From Periplaneta americana (lineage: Eukaryota > Arthropoda > Insecta > Blattodea > Blattidae): DNA of 64,000 nucleotides. Under the pieces are notes generated by a model, which was given only the letters and a program-made list of their open reading frames with translations, was not told the DNA's origin and made no database searches. Both the position numbers and the translations under genes were made by a program. The stretch covers positions 128,034,621 through 128,098,620 of the forward strand of contig NC_091125.1 of the NCBI RefSeq assembly GCF_040183065.1, given 5' to 3'. Below, piece by piece: positions 33,301-36,300 of the stretch (the first letter of the stretch is position 1; every line of letters begins with the position of its first letter).

Positions 33301-36300
33301 GCTGAGGGCGTAAATGTTGACCAACTTTCTCCTTAACAGAAGTGCAAGCTAACTTAGCCGATAATCTGCAAAAGGTATTTCCAACTGCGATTGGATGTAT
33401 CCCGCCATTTTTCTTTTCAATGGCAATTAAAGATGCTCCATATAAATGAGAACAAATTTCAGGATTAACTTTACCAGCCAACATTAGATTACATAATCTA
33501 GTAATAGCATTTAGGAGTCGCCTACCAGAATCTCCAGCAGATTTGGATGTGAGAGCTTTTAAATGTTGGGGGCGAATCCCATCAATACCAGATGCAGAAC
33601 CATTAGGAAAGTTTTTTATTCCTTGCAAAACCATATCTTGAGATACTGACAAACACACTTCATCGGGGGGTAGGAGGATCTGGAAATGCCAAGGGCCATG
33701 ATGGTGGAGGGTGTTTTTGTACTAAAGTCTCTTGTATAACTCGTGAAGCACGAGCTACTCCTGAATCAGAAGATAGAATTCGAACAGCTCCCTTTACATC
33801 ACCGTCTGCTACTTTAGCTTCAACAATGCATGGGTTGTGTGTGTAGGATTTCCATGTCCGTATTTATGTTATTGTATGTATGGTTGGCATTGGTTATGTG
33901 ATCGACACACAACCCAAGAACCAAAAACTCAACACACTAGAACAATACGAAATATACAAACACACTAAAACACACCCTGATCAAATCCTCAACACACAGA
34001 TCAATTTCAGTACACACACACTATTCGACTCCACAATCCAACACATTCCAACAATAAAACACACCCTCCTAACAGGCAGAGAAGTTCGAGATGACGCCGC
34101 GATCTAGTAGGCTCTGATGATGGTGCGTGATGCACTGAAACAGCTGTAAGCCGGACGAATATTACATATTTAACACGAGTAAGTCCACTAGTTCATCAAT
34201 TAATTATATTCAAGTGTTAAAAGTGGTGTACACAAGATTCAAAAATGGATTATCAAGACCTTGTATTGAGTTTACAATTAGCAATCTTTTGATGGAAAAA
34301 CTCAAAAGAAGTATTTTCTGAATTTAACAGAAGATCGTCAGGAGGTTCATTGGGATGAGCCCTAGCCCAGTGTATTCGCAGTCCTTTCAAGCCTTTGTAA
34401 TATTTAACATCACTGCCAGTGCAAATTGGGCACGAGACTAATTCGACATAATTAGGGCTGAGATATTATGTGTTCCACCTTTTGATGAACAAGATGGACA
34501 GAGCCAGGGGGAGTTAGACTCACCGAGGACTCTTACTTCATCACTGCATAGATAGACACAGCTGCAGTGGAACCAGCACTTACACTCTGCACATAAAATT
34601 AAACTATATTCTTCAGAAGTTCTAGGATTATCACAGAGCAGGCATTTAATGGATTCACTGGCATTCATAAACGAAGATATGAATCAGGTTAAATAAAACA
34701 AACATATAGCAACGTGTTGCTAACGAATATAAATAAACTCTTGCACAATGAAAATGTCAATATTTCATTAACCTACTTAATAGTTCAATTCACGAACACG
34801 TCCACAATCACAGTTCACAATTAATTATGCCATTTAAATTAAATGAATGTACTGCAACATATAAAGTCAAGAGATTAACTTCCTATTCAACGTAGGAAGA
34901 TAGGAAAAGTGTTGCTAACGAAAATCATTAAACACACACGAATGAATAAAATGACCATATGTCAATAAAATATTTAAGAGAACACAACACTAACATGAAC
35001 ACGATCACAGATCACTATTTCTTATAACATGAACATAAATGAATACAAACAAAAGGCAATACTTCTTGAAAACACATAAATAATGTAGAGGCACATTTAG
35101 GACTGAGAAACATATTGTCATGGCCAACTCTCAATTATTATTATTATTATTATTATTATTATTATTATTATTATTATTATTATTATTATTGTTTAACTTT
35201 GAGGAGCATTGAAAGGCTGGACACTTTTTGAAGTTGTCAGTCCATATCTATCAAAAACACATCATACAGTAAGTAACAACAAAACACAGCATAATCAAAC
35301 TTACCATAGCAGGAAAATTTTCTTCTACATCTTCATAGATACACCTCCTTTGCAAGAAATAACATCCTCGCTTACTTTGCTGTATTGTAGCGTCTTTTGT
35401 TGTTTCTCGTTTCACACAAAGCTGACAACTTAGAATGGAATAAGATGACTATAGGTCTACATGTTGTTGCAGAATGCAGATACAATACCTTCAAATTACA
35501 TACACTGATTCAATTATTCATTCATTTCCTACAGAGAAGACTATGGTATGTCACTTAGAATAATTTTAACAGGGCATTATTGCGAAAATATAGTCGACAA
35601 ATTCTTAAGTGAGATAGGCTACAATATTATTCTACATAATATAATCAATGTTGGTTACAGTATTTCTGTCCTGCCCAAACATCCAGTCGATTTTAATCAT
35701 ATTTATACCACAGATGGTTTAAAACCTTCTGGTCTATGATTAAAACTCAAATTCATCAAAATTTCAGTTACAGTGTTCTTCCTAGGGACCGCTGATATGT
35801 CCTTACAAAAAGCTGCGGAGAAGTACAGGCTTAGATATGGTACTCTCTACAAAAAATATATGGACTCAAGATGAAGAAAGCCACCGGTGTAGCTCAGTTG
35901 GCTGAGACTCTTGCCTGCAGATCCAGAGTTGCGCCCGGTTGTAGGTTCGATTCCTGCTTGGGCTGATTACTGGTTGGGTTTTGATCAATCTCACCCCACA
36001 TAATTTAAAAACTGCTTGATGAAATTTAATGGTGGTTAGAATGATTATCTTTCAATGCTGCCTCTATAATTCTGTGCTGCTGTTGTATGGTGGTCAGTCT
36101 TACTGAGGGATAACGTTGATCACCCATATTTTATTTTTTATAATTGTATTAAGGATAAAACACTGATTAAAACATATCCAATCATTTGAAATTAATATGA
36201 ATGTATTTTATTGATTTGCTTATTTCCACTTTTGCGAAAGTTAGAGCTAAGAGTAGAATGAAAATGATTATCTCACTTCACTTCGTGGTAATCAAAATGG

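Follow-up and report, generated by a model that had tools for sequence, protein, structure and literature searches.

Does a 43-nt stretch of cockroach DNA that reads like a hammerhead ribozyme represent a real ribozyme family, to which element does it belong and in what form would it act? The stretch, termed copy A1 here, occupies 34110..34152 on the plus strand of the window, the 64,000 nt of Periplaneta americana DNA from contig NC_091125.1 (C9) that we analyzed. An earlier note, made from the letters alone, had described it as an intact hammerhead-like motif at a Penelope-like end and suggested that it cleaves best as a dimer.

A hammerhead motif with an additional core base

Hammerhead cores share the consensus CUGANGA, GAA, an A15.1-U16.1 pair and NUH before the cut. 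Read directly from the sequence, copy A1 agrees with all of these and is a genuine hammerhead motif. On the plus strand, the 5' side of stem I, GGCT (34110-34113), is followed by the core CTGATGA (34114-34120), the 5' side of stem II, GGTGC (34122-34126), its loop GTGAT (34127-34131), its 3' side GCACT (34132-34136), GAA (34137-34139), stem III, ACAGCTGT (34140-34147), A17, which is H17 of GUA (34148), and the 3' side of stem I, AGCC (34149-34152). The three helices stand in type I order, with covariation backing stems I and II as described below. From the hammerhead consensus, we take the cleavage site to lie between A34148 (H17) and A34149 on the plus strand.

The earlier note had recognized the stems and core segments in the right order but missed an unpaired T/U at 34121, position 9.1, between A9 and G10.1; stem II pairs only when this base is skipped. 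Moreover, the pair that closes stem II (10.1-11.1) is a G·U, and the word 'intact' passes over both features. Stem III is self-complementary, as had been claimed (in the monomer, 3 bp around a loop of 2 nt or 2 bp around one of 4 nt), and the description needed amending in that the whole segment is an exact 8-nt palindrome, identical to its own reverse complement.

Four related motifs accompany copy A1 in the window. Siblings A2 (58095..58138, minus strand), with stem II GGUGU/GCACC, and A3 (58816..58859, plus strand), in which the core GAAA has become AAAA (G12A), belong with it to family A. Hammerheads B1 (40030..40071, minus strand; stem III ACAUGU) and B2 (41003..41044, plus strand) form family B, characterized by stem II GACC/GGUC, stem III ACAUGU and a stop codon that falls within the stem II loop. 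We built a covariance model (R1) from the five copies, and it scored them, as its own training set, at 62.1 to 69.9 bits, with copy A1 at 63.1 bits; nothing above 12.0 bits was found in the rest of the window.

The end of a Penelope-like remnant

The frame immediately 5' of copy A1 is a C-terminal remnant of a Penelope-like GIY-YIG region (33898..34104, plus strand; the sense arm), recognized by tblastn for 33898-34050 and by its open frame for the remainder. The tblastn match showed 69% identity over 51 residues to the protein encoded at 40556-41020, at the end of that protein. The frame ends in ...REVRDDAAI and runs into TAG TAG (34105..34110, plus strand, from the sequence and open frame), with the last base of the second TAG serving as the first of stem I. 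These data bear out the Penelope-like end proposed in the earlier note. An antisense piece of the same element forms an inverted arm at 33832..33906 (minus strand), on which no hammerhead was found. The element of copy A1 is a 5'-truncated Penelope-like fragment.

In total, the window contains three Penelope-like loci (33832-34208, 39981-41093 and 58008-58914), and all three include an inverted part. The second comprises a head-to-head pair of GIY-YIG regions. For its left arm (40054..40518, minus strand), a Pfam scan of 40054-40557 gave PF01541 at E 0.0056 and 17.4 bits, and for its right arm (40556..41020, plus strand), whose protein includes the stretch VYIGQTGR, the same family was matched at E 0.0052 and 17.5 bits, both below the cut-off of 22.6. 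The third locus carries a broken GIY-YIG region (58376..58776, plus strand). We thus place copy A1 in a retroelement of the GIY-YIG kind, within its terminal region; the Pfam GIY-YIG matches stayed below cut-off, and the Penelope-like assignment is supported by protein similarity, the sub-cut-off Pfam matches, the head-to-head structure and general knowledge of the family.

A full-length Penelope-like element was not found among the loci examined. At one fetched locus, L022, the frame above the hammerhead is open for 293 codons; we take the 293-aa frame to represent an RT thumb plus GIY-YIG, and Pfam reported neither RT nor GIY-YIG on it. At the same locus, near 4868 (minus strand), ~35 nt of copy A1 are absent upstream of the hammerhead, between two AGGC repeats.

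Other features were noted in the window. Reverse-transcriptase-like frames, seen by eye, lie in two pieces at 31458-33721 (minus strand), on the opposite strand and directly upstream of the Penelope-like remnant. A long minisatellite at 26709-27618 is readable in several frames. Four tRNA matches were obtained with Rfam (28908-28980, 49110-49181, 10258-10330 and 1780-1851), the first three of which are near-identical and by eye resemble repeats derived from tRNAs rather than genuine tRNA genes.

Copy number in the genome

Tests confined to the window are weak evidence when the search pattern is simple. The plain pattern CTGATGA..GAAA..GTA matched once, versus 0.39 matches expected, and at least one match occurred in 32 of 100 shuffles. 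A loose structural scan returned two window sites, copy A1 and 58134 on the minus strand; at least one site was present in 34 of 200 shuffles (mean 0.2). A tight scan found four window sites versus two sites in 1,500 shuffles, with a definition set once the sites were already known.

Copy number settles the reality of the motif. Its exact 43-mer has 236 matches in the 3.23-Gb genome, none of those listed being on the window's own contig, versus 0 for a reversed-pattern control. With T at 9.1, the core of family A has 7,697 matches versus 0 for the reversed pattern, and a loose core pattern has 18,602 versus 9,092. The U at 11.1 and the loop of copy A1 are therefore traits of a subfamily rather than private decay, as 236 identical 43-mers attest. 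Elsewhere, a hammerhead pattern search of viral contigs gave 0 matches, a GIY-YIG protein search of viral contigs gave 3 candidate stretches, none confirmed, and prokaryote genome contigs gave 38 candidate stretches, none confirmed.

Covariation and the extra base at position 9.1

We assessed pairing in an alignment of 34 copies (25 distinct) that comprised the five window copies, 24 picked by eye from the loose-core matches listed and five from a scan that demanded pairing, part of the rows thus having been chosen with pairing in mind; L019 7731 minus (3 bp) and the picked row C1:1608277 were left out. In this alignment, 91.3% of cells are paired and 10 of 12 pairs have changed on both sides, giving a covariation score of 0.438. 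None of 500 shuffles matched any of five measures, and six slid versions paired 24.1 to 35.0% of cells. The fixed core letters carry no weight here, since the copies were found by them. For the five window copies alone, 95.8% of cells are paired and four pairs have changed on both sides, a number reached by 20 of 500 shuffles. These data bear on stems I and II and say little about stem III because the latter hardly varies, two of its three pairs never doing so.

The extra base is near-universal in family A. Of 100 family A cores listed, which are the first places on contig 1 and were retrieved with stems I and III and a T at 9.1 fixed and no demand on stem II, 91 form 5 or 6 bp in stem II once the base following A9 is skipped; the other nine form fewer. 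Unskipped, the same cores have no stem II in 99 cases and 2 bp in one. At position 11.1, 77 of them carry C, 22 carry T and one carries A. A search with GAGG in place of the family's GATGG, a pattern that covers only cores with GG there, gave nine matches: six have G for T at 9.1 and three lack the base. In the 34-copy alignment, a structure without the extra base pairs 28.2% of stem II cells. The pairing-demanding scan itself, which kept sites only if some register paired, returned 25 sites outside the window and 4 within it, and all 29 have 0 bp when no insertion is allowed. Other families that we saw have T or A at 9.1.

We also considered that the extra U of family A makes an AUG start (A9-U-G10.1), and rejected this candidate: the frame from that AUG spans only 2 to 17 codons in 17 copies. 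In six copies of other families, it spans 11 to 13 codons in five and at least 60 in L009. Separately, an inverted repeat at L007 1480-1600, seemingly from a different element, contains another CTGATGAT...CGACGAAAACGT motif in which stem II pairs after one skipped base.

A palindromic stem III and predicted dimers

In families A and B of the window alike, stem III equals its own reverse complement, and it is palindromic in 24 of 28 rows compared, the rows having been picked by eye; not all segments are palindromes. This would allow an arrangement in which stem II forms inside the RNA of one motif, stem III is too short to hold alone, and the palindrome ACAGCUGU joins two motifs, carried on separate RNAs or on the same one. 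The pairing would create a double hammerhead with a common stem III of 8 bp and two cuts after GUA. A likely role for such cleavage would be to trim the element RNA or to cut it to unit length.

Secondary structure predictions differed between copies. For A2, the minimum-energy dimer is exactly the double hammerhead, at -32.1 kcal/mol, and the same fold is the predicted dimer minimum (-36.1) when a mixed core that has C at 11.1 is used. For copy A1, the double hammerhead is predicted at -29.7 versus a dimer minimum of -31.4, that is, 1.7 kcal/mol above the minimum, and for family B at -12.8 versus -16.4. Energy predictions would thus favor the double-hammerhead dimer in A2, put it close for copy A1 and, by energy alone, not yield it for family B. 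As a monomer, the hammerhead shape of copy A1 is predicted at -6.9 versus -10.4 for the best fold of the 43-mer, which keeps stems I and II and closes the core by other pairs; a 71-nt monomer folds otherwise, no better than shuffles (z 0.33). The form seen in these copies probably works when two pair up. The claim that cleavage is best as a dimer is backed by the palindromic stem III and the predicted A2 fold; it is weakened in that the double hammerhead of copy A1 is not the dimer minimum, and two tandem motifs within one transcript gained no support.

Rfam models

At the gathering threshold, Rfam searches reported no hammerhead in the window, nor in any of 15 regions searched out of 20 fetched, a set that leaves out L009, L019, L022, L027 and L028. 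At copy A1, no hammerhead match appeared up to E 10, and none was seen at A2 or in L012. The earlier note had named the lack of both a covariance hit and cleavage as its refutation, and the first of these two is what we obtained at copy A1. The only Rfam hammerhead match was B2 to Hammerhead_1 (RF00163) with 12.0 bits and E 3.7 (gathering 34), for which Infernal aligned B2 end to end with an insertion after A9. Hammerhead_1 places stem II right after A9 and closes it with G10.1-C11.1, whereas copy A1 has the extra U and a G·U. The missing match speaks of the models because the tested family copies were missed alike. PMC3705267 depicts the plus hammerhead of CChMVd with an additional A, so an insertion need not kill a hammerhead.

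Relationship to known hammerheads

Minimal hammerheads of Penelope-like elements have reportedly been described by Cervera and de la Pena in 2014 and by Lunse, Weinberg and Breaker in 2017. According to citing texts, these resemble copy A1 in their place in a terminal region, type I order, diminished stem III and proposed dimer action. In PMC7761336 and PMC6155905, the hammerheads of Penelope-like elements are described as minimal and of type I, without helix III or tertiary contacts, and as possibly self-cleaving via dimers. Copy A1 belongs with these known minimal Penelope-like hammerheads, of which dimer-acting ones are already published.

Two further systems offer a comparison. The hammerhead of Anolis PAc, as portrayed in PMC11167929, sits where pLTR and ORF meet in a Penelope-like element of the GIY-YIG type, a placement like that of copy A1. 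Its start codon lies at the beginning of stem II, after G8, so that the ORF starts inside the ribozyme; this placement would fit A-U-G at 9-9.1-10.1, whereas the family A frame from that AUG is as short as noted above. According to the same study, PAc cleavage was seen only with protein and was not needed for insertion in vitro. Animal retrozyme hammerheads are type I with a weak helix III, like copy A1, and some act as dimers, as outlined in passages of PMC7761336. Retrozymes are, however, non-autonomous, while copy A1 lies at the end of an element with a GIY-YIG region.

Arrangement of copies

Among the copies listed, close neighbors are nearly always divergent. Within 2 kb, the first 100 family A cores listed include 13 divergent, 1 convergent and 0 tandem pairs; within 5 kb, these numbers are 14, 3 and 1. 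In the first 100 exact 43-mer copies listed, where both arms are identical by construction, all 18 pairs within 2 kb are divergent and no other pair occurs up to 100 kb. One divergent pair is common to the two lists, and neither contains a same-strand pair closer than 3.2 kb. Both members are of the same subtype in 12 of the 13 divergent family A pairs listed (background 0.312; probabilities for this likeness treat neighbors as independent), and the thirteenth differs by an indel.

An inverted repeat was found in 8 of 11 loci searched, with inner gaps of 134 to 1,281 nt that indicate arms of unequal length. The search found none at the first and second window loci or at L016, and a separate comparison shows inverted arms at both window loci. 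The Penelope-like loci thus agree with an inverted-pLTR, head-to-head insert structure, a form that portions of PMC3846280 call the commonest and for which they propose self-priming on an antisense template. Since these loci do not provide two sense hammerheads per short transcript, dimer action would be intermolecular or confined to tandem copies as yet unfound.

Candidate tandem arrangements did not withstand inspection. Of the 100 cores listed, only C1:25054814 and C1:25058087 lie within 10 kb of each other on the same strand; they were taken as two insertions because two C-terminal queries match nothing between the motifs. Two arrays returned by the loose pattern (spacing 104 near C1:17648119 and 271-272 near C1:3582087) have no stem II by eye. 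As a separate observation, L029 (G000:C1:25054400-25058500) contains at ~360-460 a near-minimal palindrome with a mutated antisense and a sense hammerhead ~17 nt apart, which divergent pairs with gaps of 49 nt and 16 nt (C2:187828692) resemble.

Competing explanations

We consider it quite probable, from comparison and predicted folds, that copy A1 is a minimal type I Penelope-like hammerhead ribozyme in the pLTR region of a 5'-truncated copy, one that would act as a dimer through its palindrome. A chance resemblance would be compatible with the shuffles that contain sites (34 of 200 in the loose scan and 32 of 100 for the plain pattern) and with the lack of an Rfam match at copy A1, but the 7,697 cores versus 0, the covariation and the two sites in 1,500 tight-scan shuffles make it vanishingly improbable. 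Conservation for coding or DNA reasons, such as an ORF end or a pLTR signal, with the hammerhead likeness as a by-product, would fit the location of the family B stop codon, within the loop of stem II, and that of the copy A1 stops, next to stem I. Stems I and II nevertheless change together on both sides across families, and we regard this explanation as very unlikely.

A special case of the ribozyme reading deserves more weight: the family ribozyme was once active and copy A1 itself no longer cleaves usefully. The 5' truncation, the unpaired U at 9.1 and the G·U at 10.1-11.1, the broken core of sibling A3 and competing folds would all fit. Against it, the bases in question are those of a copied subfamily, as seen from the 236 exact matches, the U at 11.1 recurs in 22 of the 100 family A cores listed and the extra U is present in 7,697 cores. 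We hold loss of activity in copy A1 to be a real possibility, though a tentative one that we do not favor.

The palindromic stem III might serve as a dimerization device as well as a part of the ribozyme: two element RNAs joined in a double hammerhead would reach one target as a pair, and each RNA would be copied from its own side of that target. If true, this co-delivery would explain neighbors that are divergent and alike in subtype. We think it unlikely; self-priming on an antisense template, proposed for such structures in PMC3846280, is the existing alternative and accounts equally well for how alike the arms are. More broadly, Penelope-type hammerhead cores number in the thousands in this one 3.23-Gb genome; with their additional core nucleotide and, mostly, a palindromic stem III, they offer a large natural set for studying insertion tolerance, dimer action and the use of the ribozyme to its element.
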